Origin: a virus
DNA: 38,463 nt
IMG/VR virus record: IMGVR_UViG_3300035703_000203
Location: 1-38,463 of that record
Reading direction: 5' to 3' (one strand)
How positions within the stretch are numbered: the first letter of the stretch is position 1; every line of letters begins with the position of its first letter. Below, one piece after another: positions 15,995 through 38,226 of the stretch. The translations under genes were made by a program, and so were the position numbers. The notes below the pieces were generated by a model. The model made no database searches. It worked only from the letters and a program-made list of their open reading frames with translations, and was not told the DNA's origin.

Positions 15995-18670
15995 ATGACC
16001 ATTACGATTGTCGTTCCCGAGCGTGAGGGCGGGTCTTCTACTGAGATCGCCAGTGCGGTTGAGGCGGCTGAGGCCGCGCAAGCTGCTGCTGAAGTCGCCC
16101 AGGCGGCGGCGGAAGCCGCGCAGGCAGCCACGGAAGCGGCGGACTTTACGGTCGGGACGGTTGCGACGTCGAATCCCGGCACGGACGCCGTCGTTGATAT
16201 CTCCGGCTCTGCGCCGGATTTCGTCATCGACTTCACTATTCCGCGCGGGGCTGGCGTTCCCTCGGGCGGAACCGCTGGCCAATATCACCGCAAGTCATCG
16301 GGAACGGACTATGCGACGGCATGGTCCAGCATCACGATCACTGACGTAACCAGCCTGTCGTCCAGCCTTTCGACGCTGACCTCTGCTGACACCAGCATCA
16401 ACACTCGTGTGTCGACCGAGACCGTCACGCGCACGTCTGCGGATACTTCGCTCACGACGCGGCTTTCGACGGAGGAGGGTTCCCGCGCGAGCGCCGACAC
16501 CAGCCTCACGACTCGCCTTTCCACGGAAGAAGTCGCCCGCGCAAGCGTCGATGTCTCTCTGGCGCAGGTCGCTTCGCCACTGCGAAACGTGGCGGTTAAT
16601 CCCGCTTTGGACAGCCGGGGCGAGGCGACGAGTTGGGCGCTTTCGGCGGGCACGACGCCCAGCTATCAAGCGCCTGCCAATTCCGACCTGACCGACCTTG
16701 GCATCGTCCGCATGGTCGATCTCAGCACCGGCGCCCCCTATACCTTCGTCTACAAGAACGAGACGCTGACGGCGGCGGACGCTCTGAAATATGTCTATGT
16801 GAGCGTGCTGATCTATTCGGCGGACGGCACGTCGTGGCCGAGCGGCATTGACGCCATTCCCTACACGACGACGGCCCAAAGCCTGACCGGCGGGACGAGC
16901 GATTATGTCCAGGTCACGACCAACATTCGCCGATACTGGCGGGCCGGACAACTTCCCAGCGGCACACTGACCCGGATGGCCGTGGGGCGCGCAAACGTCG
17001 CCTACACCGCACAGATGGGCGGGTTCACTTTCGTTCTTTCGGACTCGGCGATTGTTGATGCGGCTGTGCAACAGGCGGATTTCTACCGCGAGGTCAACAC
17101 CGACTATAACCAGCGCGAAGATCACTACACGCTGGAAGACCTTGAGGAGACGGTCTCCGCGCAAGCGGCCACTATCGCAGGGATGCGTCTGGCCATCTCC
17201 GGCAAGTTTCAACGCTCGCTTGCCATCATCGGCGATAGCCGTGGTCAAGACGGCGTGCAGTGGTGGAAAAACGGCAGTTCGACCAACTGGAATGGGCTAC
17301 CCATTGGCTCGGCTTTTGTCGGGCCGCTGGCGACGGAGGCGGGGAACGGCACGCTCGAATACCGAGCCTCGGACGGATACATGCGATGGGCGGCCAGCAG
17401 CGACACGGCGGGAAGCTGGACCCCGATTGTCGCGGGCTGGAACCATCTCGAAAGCGGATCGGCTGACAAGTGGATCAAGCTGCCGGTCAAGAACCTGACT
17501 GGGATGCCGGGAACGGACCAGAGCGTGACCGTCCTGCAATCGGGAACGGTGCAGTATGCGTGGCGGTCTTATGGCTATTGGGTTCGCGCGCTGCATCAGA
17601 TGCGCTGGCTGAACGAAGAGCCCGCGATGTGCGCCATCGGCGGCGCGACATCCTCAGAGGTGATCGAGCAGCTTCCCTATATTGCGACGCAGGCGACCGG
17701 CCCAGGGTGGGATATCATCCTGCTCGGCACGAACGATATCAGCGGCTCCATCGCGTCAGCGACAATCATCGCCAACCTCACGACGATCTATGACACGCGG
17801 GCCGGGCTGGGTCGAAAGCTGGTCATCGTCGGCGAACATGCGCGCTGGGGCACGGCGTCTGGCACTCCGATGTCGGCGGGGCAGATCACGATCTTTGACG
17901 CCGTCAGGGCGGCGCAGCAGGCTTACGCCGTCGCGGGCGGGCACATCTTCATCGACGCCTATGCCCTGACCTATGACAGCGGATACAGCGACCGCCGCCC
18001 CGCCTCGGGAATGCTGCGCGATCACGTGCACCTCACCGAATACGGGGCGCAGTTGATCGGCGAGGCCATTTGCGAGGCGCTGCAATACGAGGTGGGTCTG
18101 GGCGATGTGGTTTCGGCGGGAGACGCCGACAACGCGTTGGGCAGCTTTCCGGCGGGCTCGGCTGGATCGCTCGGCACGGGCGCATCCGGTGCAGCGCCCA
18201 CGAACTTCTCGTTGTCAAGAGCCTCCGGCTCTACAGCCACGGTTGTTGCATCAGTCGAGGCTCGCGATGACGGCGTCTCGGGCAATATTTTCAGGATGCA
18301 ATGCGCGGCGGGGGCCTCGGCGGGGATTATTCAGCTAGAGGGCACGTCTGCGTCTTCAACTCTCGCCGCCCTCGGCTTGGCCGTTGGAGACGAAATCTAC
18401 GTCGAGGTGTTCCTTGATATCCGGGACGCAACGCTGTTGCAGGATGTGGAGGTGTTTGTCTCCTTCACGGGCGCGACCGGCACCCCCACCCTGAGAACGA
18501 ATATCGCGCGCACTGGCGCGGCGCTTGCTGATGAAGTTGCCGTGCATCGCAGCCCGACCGTGGCCATTCCGGCGTCAACAACGCATGTCCGGCCCTACAT
18601 TTGGGTGCGCCTGCCTGCCGGATCGAATGCGGACATCCGCTGCATCCTGAAGATCGTCAAGGTGTCGTGA
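15995..18670 (+). CDS. Tail spike with SGNH/GDSL hydrolase domain
   Basis: 891 residues. An Ala-rich coiled coil (residues ~15-50) is followed by PDFVIDFTIPRG and three ~18-residue repeats built on SADTSLTTRLSTEE (~128-186), likely a trimeric stalk. Residues ~408-690 carry SGNH hydrolase signatures: GDS (nucleophile Ser415), a block II Gly in AIGGATSS, GTND (578-581), and Asp676/His679 in DHVHLTEYG. Such domains de-acetylate or cleave esters on surface polysaccharides. The last ~180 residues look like a beta-sandwich carbohydrate-binding module. It likely sets host range. Confidence 0.88.
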   Translation: MTITIVVPEREGGSSTEIASAVEAAEAAQAAAEVAQAAAEAAQAATEAADFTVGTVATSNPGTDAVVDISGSAPDFVIDFTIPRGAGVPSGGTAGQYHRKSSGTDYATAWSSITITDVTSLSSSLSTLTSADTSINTRVSTETVTRTSADTSLTTRLSTEEGSRASADTSLTTRLSTEEVARASVDVSLAQVASPLRNVAVNPALDSRGEATSWALSAGTTPSYQAPANSDLTDLGIVRMVDLSTGAPYTFVYKNETLTAADALKYVYVSVLIYSADGTSWPSGIDAIPYTTTAQSLTGGTSDYVQVTTNIRRYWRAGQLPSGTLTRMAVGRANVAYTAQMGGFTFVLSDSAIVDAAVQQADFYREVNTDYNQREDHYTLEDLEETVSAQAATIAGMRLAISGKFQRSLAIIGDSRGQDGVQWWKNGSSTNWNGLPIGSAFVGPLATEAGNGTLEYRASDGYMRWAASSDTAGSWTPIVAGWNHLESGSADKWIKLPVKNLTGMPGTDQSVTVLQSGTVQYAWRSYGYWVRALHQMRWLNEEPAMCAIGGATSSEVIEQLPYIATQATGPGWDIILLGTNDISGSIASATIIANLTTIYDTRAGLGRKLVIVGEHARWGTASGTPMSAGQITIFDAVRAAQQAYAVAGGHIFIDAYALTYDSGYSDRRPASGMLRDHVHLTEYGAQLIGEAICEALQYEVGLGDVVSAGDADNALGSFPAGSAGSLGTGASGAAPTNFSLSRASGSTATVVASVEARDDGVSGNIFRMQCAAGASAGIIQLEGTSASSTLAALGLAVGDEIYVEVFLDIRDATLLQDVEVFVSFTGATGTPTLRTNIARTGAALADEVAVHRSPTVAIPASTTHVRPYIWVRLPAGSNADIRCILKIVKVS

Positions 18671-31241: not shown

Positions 31242-31519
31242 CGACCGCTCGCCATTTCCCAGCGGTATTCCGCTGCACTCTCGGCGTGGTCGGTGTCGGC
31301 TTCGGCGAGGGCGTCCTCGGCTTCCGACAGGAAGTGTTCGAGGATCAGCGCGGAAAGCTCAGGCGTGACCGGAACCATGCGGCTGGTCTTGTGGCGCTGG
31401 CCGACCGGTGCGTGCCGGTCATAGAGGCAAAGGCCGATCTCGGTGATCTCGGCTTCCGCGTCGCGGTCAAGCGCTTGAACAAGCACTTTGACCTCAAGGC
31501 TGATGGTCGCGGTCTGCAT
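31238..31519 (-). CDS. Hypothetical protein sharing a leader with its neighbour
   Basis: 93 residues from ATG 31519, which overlaps the upstream TGA; the Arg-rich longer frame is just the antisense-frame reading of a repeat. Its first 16 coding bases are identical to those of the 32223 gene. The middle is beta-like ([20 protein letters not shown]) and the C-terminus helical and acidic ([19 protein letters not shown]). No family recognised. Confidence 0.65.
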
Positions 31520-32223
31520 CACGACACCCGCGCGAGACATTCGACCATGCCGTTCGCCAGTCGCGCCATAGCCTCTTGGCGGCGCGTTTTCTTGGCGTCG
31601 GCGTTGGCGTAGGCGTCGGCGTAGGCGTAGGCGTCGGCGTCGGCGTAGGCGTCGGCGTAGGCGTTGGCGTAGGCGTCGGCGTTGGCGTAGGCGTCGGCGT
31701 CGGCGTTGGCGTAGGCGTCGGCGTCGGCGTATTGCTCCCGGTACATCGGCTGGAGCGCCTCGCGCCATTCGGCTCTCGGCGCTCTGTCGCCGGTCAAAGC
31801 GCGCTCATGCAGCCCCTTAACCTTCAGAACGGCGTCGGTGGACAGCTTGCGAAGCTCGCGCCACTCAACGCCGAGTGGGCAGACCACATTAGCCTGCCAG
31901 TCATGGATGACGCTGAACGGAACCTTGCCGTCGAGGCGGGCGAGTTCAGCGTAGAACCGCTCGCCCCATGCGACGGCGGCGTCAAAATCCATGCCGTCGA
32001 AGAAGGTCGGCACCATTTGCGCCAGCCAACGCGGCATGACGGTTGCGGGGCACATCGCGTGGCCTTCAACATCGGGACCGAGAACGCCCAGCGCGCAGGC
32101 CAGTTGGCGTCCATCGTCGGCGGTCTTGTGCCAAGCGTTCTGAGTGAGGAGCCCGGCCTCGCGTGCGGCATGGAAGCGCTCGAACGCTTCAGCGGCGGTT
32201 TGGGCGGTGGTCGCGGTCTGCAT
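31519..32223 (-). CDS. Phage protein with (YA/DA/NA) dipeptide repeat
   Basis: 234 residues. Residues ~1-160 are a globular region ([40 protein letters not shown]). A 46-residue run of Tyr-Ala, Asp-Ala and Asn-Ala dipeptides follows, encoded by 23 hexanucleotide units, then a basic tail ([12 protein letters not shown]). Such YADA-type repeats occur in other phage early proteins of unknown function. Unit number is likely to vary by slippage in steps that keep the frame. It is the first gene of the leftward operon. Confidence 0.75.
31594..31731. repeat. 23-unit hexanucleotide tandem repeat
   Basis: An uninterrupted run of GGCGTN (plus strand; N is C, A or T), 23 units over 138 bases, lying in frame within a gene on the minus strand. 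It encodes 23 dipeptides X-Ala with X Tyr, Asp or Asn. Confidence 0.95.
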
Positions 32224-32233
32224 GGGTGTCTCC

Positions 32234-32280
32234 CGTTCGATAGGGAGACGTTACCACGGGTTACGCGGGATGCAAGGGGA
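32234..32280 (-). promoter_or_regulatory. Leftward early promoter (PL-like) with operator
   Basis: Minus strand: TTGCAT, 16 bases, TAACGT, leading into the 32223 gene. Operator copy 1 (32250-32266) covers the spacer and -10 region. The same relation is seen at the rightward promoter. Confidence 0.55.
32250..32266. promoter_or_regulatory. Operator-like motif, copy 1
   Basis: GTTACCACGGGTTACGC, fitting the consensus RTTAC-N5-GTTACGC shared with 32282-32298 and, reversed, 32738-32754. It overlaps the leftward promoter. Confidence 0.65.
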
Positions 32281-32281
32281 A

Positions 32282-32298
32282 ATTACGGAGAGTTACGC
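32282..32298. promoter_or_regulatory. Operator-like motif, copy 2
   Basis: ATTACGGAGAGTTACGC. It lies 32 bases from copy 1 (about three helical turns), upstream of the leftward -35 and overlapping the last bases of the repressor gene. Confidence 0.65.
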
Positions 32299-32679
32299 AA
32301 AGCCGATCTTTAGCATCCGCTCGACCAGATCGATAATCTCGGCCTGTCTCTCTTCCGGCTGCTCCCGAATGGTGTTGACCAGATGCAGCTCCACAGCGGT
32401 TAGCGGCACGTCAAACGGCGTTCCGTGACCGGCTAAAAGCCATTGCCAGCTAACCCCGAACTTTTTGCCGAACTGCTGTGCAGCCGTGTGCGTAAGCTTT
32501 ATGTGCTTGGACGTGCCGGGCGCCCGCTCATAGGCGCGGTACGTGTGCTGGTTAAGGCCCAGGCTTTCAGCAGCGGCCCCTGCGTTGGGCGTGATGCCCT
32601 TTGACAGTTGCCACCGACACCGCGCCCACGTCAGGCGCTCGTGCCCGCCGTCCAACGATTCCCAATCCGCTAATTCCAT
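32293..32679 (-). CDS. CI-like repressor (XRE-type HTH)
   Basis: 128 residues from ATG 32679. No ribosome site is visible, so it may be read from a leaderless message, as lambda cI is from PRM. Residues ~15-75 form an HTH domain (RLTWARCRWQLSKGITPNAG, then LGLNQHTYRAYERAPG and FGVSWQWLLAGHGTPF). The C-terminus is a short helical dimerisation-type segment (QPEERQAEIIDLVERMLK). It lacks the S24 protease domain, so induction would not use RecA-stimulated self-cleavage. It is divergent from the cro-like gene and flanked by operator-like repeats. Confidence 0.85.
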   Translation of the reverse strand: MELADWESLDGGHERLTWARCRWQLSKGITPNAGAAAESLGLNQHTYRAYERAPGTSKHIKLTHTAAQQFGKKFGVSWQWLLAGHGTPFDVPLTAVELHLVNTIREQPEERQAEIIDLVERMLKIGFA

Positions 32680-32696
32680 AGCCGGGAAGGTTAACG

Positions 32697-32763
32697 GAAA
32701 CCGTGTGACGGGGGGTAATATCGGGCTTGATGCGAGCGCGTAACTCATGGTAATCCGTAGCCA
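32697..32763. promoter_or_regulatory. cI-cro divergent control region with PR- and PRM-like promoters
   Basis: Rightward: TTGATG (32727-32732), then about 17 bases, then GTAATC. Leftward toward the repressor: TTACGC, 17 bases, TATTAC. Operator copy 3 (32738-32754, minus orientation: ATTACCATGAGTTACGC) overlaps both the rightward -10/spacer and the leftward -35, so one bound protein could repress PR and control PRM. Confidence 0.55.
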
Positions 32764-32957
32764 TGACGCACTCTGACATCATCGAGCGCAAGGGCACCGC
32801 CGCTTTCGCGGATGCCCTTCGCATTTCGCCTGCGCACGTCCGTGTCTGGAAGTCGCGCCGCATCCCGCGAGCCGCTTACGCGGACATCATCACGGTCTTT
32901 CCCGATATCTCGCTGGACGACCTGAAAGCCGGTGAGCCCAAAGGCGAGGCCGCCTAG
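32763..32957 (+). CDS. Cro-like regulator
   Basis: 64 residues. THSDIIERKGTAAFADALRI, SPAHVRVWKSRRIPRAAYADI is a small HTH of the YdaS/Cro type, in which SPAHVRVWKSR would be the recognition helix. It sits directly opposite the repressor gene, the standard place of a lytic-growth antirepressor. Its stop abuts the next ATG. An intrinsic terminator lies about 160 bases downstream, comparable to lambda tR1 after cro. Confidence 0.82.
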   Translation: MTHSDIIERKGTAAFADALRISPAHVRVWKSRRIPRAAYADIITVFPDISLDDLKAGEPKGEAA

Positions 32958-37800: not shown

Positions 37801-38226
37801 ATGAAAGAGTGCAAGAACTGCGCCCGCGCGCTAGCGGCCTCGGACTTTTACAGCCACCCGGCCACGGCTGACCGACTGTTGGCGGTCTGCAAGCAGTGCC
37901 ACAGGGCGGACATGCGCGCCCGGCGTCGGCTCAATGGAGAATCCATAAGGGCCTATGACCGCTCGCGCGGAAGCCGCCGCACCGTCGCCGAAACGCGCGC
38001 TTGGAGGGCGGCGAACCCCGAAAAGTACCGCGCCCAAACAGCGGTAGGCAACGCCATCCGAGACGGCAAGCTGTCGAAGGAACCCTGTCTGTTCTGCGGG
38101 GAGGAGAGGGTCCACGCTCACCACGCGGACTATAGCGAGCCGCTGAAGGTCACATGGCTTTGCCCCAAGTGTCACCAGCGGTTGCACGCCAACTTCCCGG
38201 ATCATGTTCAGCAGGCCTCCGCATGA
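37801..38226 (+). CDS. HNH/zinc-finger endonuclease-like protein
   Basis: 141 residues; GAGG lies about 7 bases before the ATG. An N-terminal zinc knuckle (CKNCARALAASDFYSHPATA ... CKQCHRADM) is followed by a basic linker and a C-terminal CLFCGEERVHAHHADYSEPL, WLCPKCHQRLHA. The CxxC/HHADY/CxxCHxxxH set is the phage Zn-bound HNH (VSR-like fold) type. Its stop overlaps the next ATG. It is the third HNH gene in this arm. Confidence 0.85.
   Translation: MKECKNCARALAASDFYSHPATADRLLAVCKQCHRADMRARRRLNGESIRAYDRSRGSRRTVAETRAWRAANPEKYRAQTAVGNAIRDGKLSKEPCLFCGEERVHAHHADYSEPLKVTWLCPKCHQRLHANFPDHVQQASA

Follow-up and report, generated by a model that had tools for sequence, protein, structure and literature searches.

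Direct-repeat-like operators at a putative lambda/P22-style lysogeny switch are probably hybrid palindromes

In the lambda, P22 and 434 phages, a repressor gene, cI or c2, and a divergent cro gene have operators between them, a second cluster of operators lies at PL, and proteins with a helix-turn-helix (HTH) fold recognise sites of 15-17 bp whose half-sites are one helical turn apart. The second residue of the recognition helix, which is Ser45 in lambda and Gln29 in 434, reads a base pair about 5 from the dyad. In the 933W repressor, Lys42, the residue that follows Ser41 at the first position of the recognition helix, has been modelled at position 3 of a 15-bp operator, where T-A was preferred over the consensus A-T, and the authors remarked that contacts to the two half-sites may be unequal (PMC3317979). 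The operators of P2 C are 8-bp direct repeats with centres 22 bp apart (PMC4752584). Binders of the RDF/Apl type are monomeric and spread over five to seven direct repeats (PMC7498355).

The window analysed here, i.e. the whole stretch of DNA, is a virus record of 38,463 bp with a phage-like gene set that includes a terminase, a major head protein, a tyrosine integrase and a DnaB-type helicase. The promoters of the locus are predicted, PR from an alignment with about 30 homologous promoters, and PL from the sequence and an alignment of homologous promoters. The features discussed are the following:

32293-32679, minus strand: repressor gene, 128 aa, lambda/434/P22 c2-type HTH without an S24 domain
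32763-32957, plus strand: Cro-like gene, 64 aa, P22-Cro-like
31519-32223, minus strand: first ORF in the leftward operon that predicted PL would drive, matching no known family
32727-32756, plus strand: predicted PR, -35 TTGATG (32727-32732), 18-bp spacer, -10 TAATCC (32751-32756)
32248-32275, minus strand: predicted PL, -35 TTGCAT (32275-32270), 16-bp spacer, -10 TAACGT (32253-32248)
32250-32264, minus strand: putative operator OL1, GTAAC-CCGTG-GTAAC, copy 1 of the initial annotation, overlapping the PL -10
32282-32296, minus strand: putative operator OL2, GTAAC-TCTCC-GTAAT, copy 2, upstream of the PL -35
32740-32754, plus strand: putative operator OR1, GTAAC-TCATG-GTAAT, copy 3, overlapping the PR -10
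32705-32719, plus strand: putative operator OR2, GTGAC-GGGGG-GTAAT, a degenerate fourth site with 2 mismatches

The Cro-like gene lies to the right of the repressor gene, and its product has a profile match to P22 Cro (1RZS, E 0.004) and the PHROG category transcription regulation. The leftward operon starts at 32223, to the left of the repressor gene; its first ORF carries tandem gcgtcggcgtaggcgt-like units at 31600-31735, which encode a run of repeats of the Ala-Asp-Ala-Tyr-Ala-Asn type. The Pfam search gave no match for the repressor or the Cro-like protein, tblastn with the repressor found no relative among annotated phage records, and a first scan of genome contigs with a single-protein query returned nothing. 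In the AlphaFold (AF2) model of the repressor (pLDDT 91), the recognition helix comprises residues 44-51, QHTYRAYE, with His45 as its second residue, and the HTH domain matches the folds of P22 c2 (Z 9.0), 434 Cro (8.6), 434 repressor (8.0) and lambda (7.5).

The three copies of RTTAC-N5-GTTACGC reported to flank the repressor gene were confirmed. The exact 17-mer occurs at 32250-32266 (plus strand), 32282-32298 (plus strand) and 32738-32754 (minus strand), and the search for further exact copies within the 38,463-bp record found none. Under a Markov-1 model the 17-mer was absent from 300 simulated windows, and the shorter RTTAC-N5-GTTAC is expected 0.017 times per window. The spacing of 10 bp between halves and of 32 bp between copies 1 and 2 (copy 2 upstream) had also been given correctly, and copies 1 and 3 do have equivalent positions in PL and PR, with the -10 inside the downstream half of each. 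OL2 also reaches into the final codons of the repressor gene. The degenerate site OR2 is an addition to the copies of the initial annotation. When a scoring matrix built solely from the operator sites of other phages was applied, OL1, OR1, OL2 and OR2 were the top-ranked distinct sites of the window. The score of OR2 (12.5) is inside the range of shuffled maxima, and the site was accepted for its position and not for its score: it precedes OR1 by 35 bp, an arrangement shared by L005, L009 and L027. OR2 would make the OL/OR pair around the repressor gene symmetric, with two sites per side. Elsewhere in the window, the degenerate pattern GTnAC-N5-GTnAY matched at 16284, 24980 and 25438, and the matrix gave one weak match, at 38171; all of these were at chance level and were discarded. 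A literature search for GTTAC operators found none.

No third operator was found beside the start of the window's repressor gene, unlike in L009 and L027. In five relatives (L009, L017, L019, L021 and L027) a third operator-like site lies just upstream of the repressor ATG, abutting it or nearly so, as in GTAAC-CTCTA-GTTAC-ATG of L009, and this location suggests that the repressor may regulate its own synthesis.

GTTAC differs from its reverse complement GTAAC at the centre base only, and is thus self-complementary at four of five positions, so that a direct repeat of this half-site departs from an inverted repeat by a single mismatch in each half. The sites in the window can equally be read as palindromes GTnAC-N5-GTnAC in which one base pair of each half breaks the symmetry. 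Agreement between halves was counted on 19 direct-type sites from six phages. Read as direct repeats, positions 1-5 agree in 19, 19, 18, 19 and 14 sites; read as inverted repeats, they agree in 14, 19, 0, 19 and 19. The choice between direct and inverted is therefore decided by one base pair per half. Within a half, the dyad holds at four of the five positions (GT-AC) and never at the centre base; since the latter is asymmetric in 19/19 sites, this asymmetry is not noise. The downstream half varies at its outermost base only (C or T), mirroring the outermost G/A variation of palindromic relatives, and the inner C and G are invariant. The term non-palindromic thus applies to the centre base pair of each half, and does not describe the other positions, which are largely those of an inverted repeat.

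Homologues of the repressor were collected from viral contigs and from genomes of the family, order and class around G001, an uncultured Caulobacteraceae genome, and the site lists of these relatives were partly curated by eye. Half-sites are 10 bp apart in all the related loci read, and the same geometry in more than 20 relatives backs the proposal that the sites are operators located in both early promoters. Seventeen related loci have true palindromes with the same spacing and promoter position, and six loci, including the window, have the direct form:

GTTAC-N5-GTAAC: L004, L076, L078, L096, L098
RTTAC-N5-GTAAY: L012, L015, L016, L026, L074, L075, L077
GCTAC-N5-GTAGC: L017, L018, L019
GATAC-N5-GTATC: L014
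mixed palindromic forms: L021
direct form: the window, L005, L009, L010, L027 and the distant L043

The difference in operator form appears to go along with a change in the recognition helix. Only three columns of the HTH alignment split the direct and palindromic classes; two of them are in the loop between helix 1 and helix 2, and the third is His45. The residues His-Thr-Tyr (HTY), starting at helix position 2, are found in 6/6 direct-form loci vs 0/17 palindromic loci, and the centre base of the upstream half is A in 21 cases and G in one in the HTY loci, compared with T in 44 and C in two in the other 17. The base pair about five from the dyad would be the place where the operator classes differ. 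His alone as the determinant was ruled out by L078, a repressor with EHGY, that is, His followed by Gly at the same place, and yet with palindromic sites; His-Thr-Tyr fits. A Fisher test of HTY against direct form gave 1e-5, a value that the kinship of the HTY loci makes unfair as a probability. These loci group together in the repressor tree, whose root is uncertain, with one change of label (support 57/49), and the association with the direct form may thus go back to a single event. The Cro recognition helix also shifts with operator class, with Gly at the matching position in the GTTAC palindrome phages L004, L012, L016, L096 and L098, and Ala, Ser or Ile in the HTY phages (the window, L005, L009, L010 and L027).

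A scan of 2.9 million viral contigs for paired direct sites, in which the protein was ignored, returned the known HTY phages and the distant L043, which is also HTY and whose repressor has a long C-terminal part of the CI/LexA type, matching CI repressors. When the pattern was changed to inverted pairs, the scan yielded L096 and L098 as the contigs that carry a family repressor, and both of these repressors have Gly. The direct-array pattern also matches contigs in which simple 10-bp GTTACG tandem iterons occur away from any family repressor, and taken by itself it is therefore no evidence for this switch. Such true head-to-tail iterons were observed in the viral contigs L028, L030, L034, L035, L037-L040, L045, L046, L048, L052, L055, L059, L066 and L071, many of which share the flank ttctttatcatgtGTTACGATTTGTTACG. 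A search with an alignment restricted to HTY sequences gave one new locus, L108, which is only about 30% identical over the HTH domain. Its four operators are perfectly symmetric and of a swapped kind, GTAAC-N5-GTTAC, as would be expected if a two-fold dimer recognised GTAAC in both halves. The same swapped two-fold form recurs in L009 and L027, in the third sites next to the start of the repressor gene. L108 and L043 represent more independent cases of the HTY association.

In nearly all of the aligned promoters, whose spacers are mostly 16-18 bp, the -10 begins at base 2 of the downstream half, and its TA (T-12 A-11) corresponds to bases 2-3 of GTAxx. A change of this half to GTTAC would cause the loss of the TA. 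In the PL of L108, read by eye, the half is turned, and a candidate -10 (TATTGT, 17 bp from TAGACA) is located inside the spacer. The cro ATG is 6 nt after the predicted -10 in the window and 6-9 nt after it in nearly all relatives; this short distance (32751-32763 in the window) suggests a leaderless cro mRNA, which is probably a character of the whole family. In 23/28 promoters (after correction of L009 PR by eye) the downstream half of operator 2 is immediately followed by a run of T. This run is found in PL and PR and in both operator classes, upstream of the -35 and at a near-constant distance from it, and is perhaps UP-element-like. A repressor-maintenance promoter over OR2 (TTACGC-17-TATTAC) was considered and dropped, as it has no counterpart in L005.

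From these comparisons of sequences, the likely explanation is that the four sites are operators of a lambda/P22-style switch for a two-fold dimer, and that they are hybrid palindromes fixed by the His helix and the -10. OL1/OL2 and OR1/OR2 would be the operators of the lysogeny switch, at which the 128-aa repressor, as a two-fold symmetric dimer in competition with the Cro-like protein, would cover the -10 elements of PL and PR. The sites would be 15-bp pseudo-palindromes, in which the upstream half, GTAAC, is the form paired with His at recognition-helix position 2, and the downstream half retains the old form, GTAAY, because the TA of the -10 element falls on its bases 2-3. One half in the His form and the other held by the promoter would give a hybrid palindrome with the appearance of a head-to-tail repeat. 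The sequences themselves show the sites, their location within the promoters, the palindromes of the relatives and the link with His-Thr-Tyr. Binding by the repressor is suggested by the position of the sites and their co-variation with its helix; we further infer the symmetry of the dimer, the contact between His and the base pair, and a constraint from the promoter that would cause the asymmetry. The family is a clear natural example of a residue in the recognition helix and a base pair in the operator that change together, and the asymmetric product probably reflects the overlap with promoter elements. The overlap may account for the halves of OL1 and OR1, but not for those of OL2 and OR2, which are also unturned although they are just upstream of the -35 and off the -10. 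Moreover, an asymmetry of the centre base in all 19 sites is stricter than drift would give, which counts against the hybrid palindrome. The strict centre-base asymmetry is only partly explained.

It could also be proposed that the asymmetry is functional rather than forced by the -10, the unequal subunit contacts of a two-fold dimer being oriented by it with respect to RNA polymerase, or different affinities for repressor and Cro being set by it. This we regard as unlikely. Its maintenance in OL2/OR2, the near-constant distance of the downstream half upstream of the -35, the frequent T-run, the shift in the Cro helix between operator classes and the unequal half-site contacts in 933W (PMC3317979) are all consistent with it; however, the palindromic relatives run the same promoters with symmetric sites. 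Still less probable is the head-to-tail binding that the initial annotation deduced from the direct repeats and set against lambda, with two repressor subunits on one DNA face, each reading GTAAY in the same way. The orientation of the centre base is kept as direct in every one of the 19 sites, including OL2 and OR2, and phage precedents exist in P2 C (PMC4752584) and in RDFs that bind head to tail, for example 186 Apl (PMC7498355). But relatives of the same fold, among them L004 and L012 with repressors more than 50% identical, have true palindromes with the same spacing and promoter position, the sites of L108 and the third sites of L009 and L027 are two-fold, the half-site is almost self-complementary, the confinement of variation to the outermost downstream base suits the inverted register, and the sites occur in pairs only, with longer arrays absent. 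The deduction is therefore unsupported, and head-to-tail binding is not needed to explain the sites. We give as little credence to a lambda-fold homodimer that came to read a 10-bp direct repeat, or to make obligate asymmetric contacts, through a change of one recognition-helix residue while its close relatives stayed palindromic. That the sites belong to another protein, for instance an excisionase-like factor of the Apl/Cox type, is very improbable: Apl-type factors do bind between early promoters, at direct repeats with a one-turn spacing (PMC7498355), but here the sites lie on both sides of the repressor gene, at PL and at PR, across relatives and co-vary with the repressor helix, each has two halves and not five to seven repeats, and no exact copy lies elsewhere in the record.

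The repressor family constitutes a natural experiment in protein-DNA specificity, given that, among repressors with common operator spacing and promoter geometry, one helix residue tracks a single base pair of the operator. Within the group of the window, the new form is confined to the half-site free of the -10. The hybrid palindrome provides a concrete and readily testable view of the way in which a promoter that overlaps its operators could keep them asymmetric for a symmetric repressor. Caution is also called for, since near-self-complementary half-sites like GTTAC are poor evidence for head-to-tail binding.

Compared with the CI(C2)-Cro regions of lambda, P22 and 434, which the locus resembles in gene arrangement, fold and site geometry, the window has two operators per side where they have three, a short repressor (128 aa) without the S24 self-cleavage/oligomerisation domain, a half-site centre base that breaks the dyad, and a cro predicted to be leaderless. 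Since the S24 domain is absent, the switch is only said to work like a lambda/P22 immunity region. As with the RDF/Apl binders, direct repeats spaced by one helical turn lie between its early promoters, but its sites are paired halves only, not arrays of five or more repeats at 10-11 bp spacing. With P2 C it has in common direct repeats at a lysogeny switch promoter; its halves, in contrast, are 5 bp long and 10 bp apart, with palindromic relatives, and the P2 geometry is not found. By analogy, its operator layout is like that of 933W, whose consensus is two-fold: both would have a 15-bp site with a conserved A-C at positions 4-5, and a position 3 that acts as the variable specificity base near recognition-helix residue 2.
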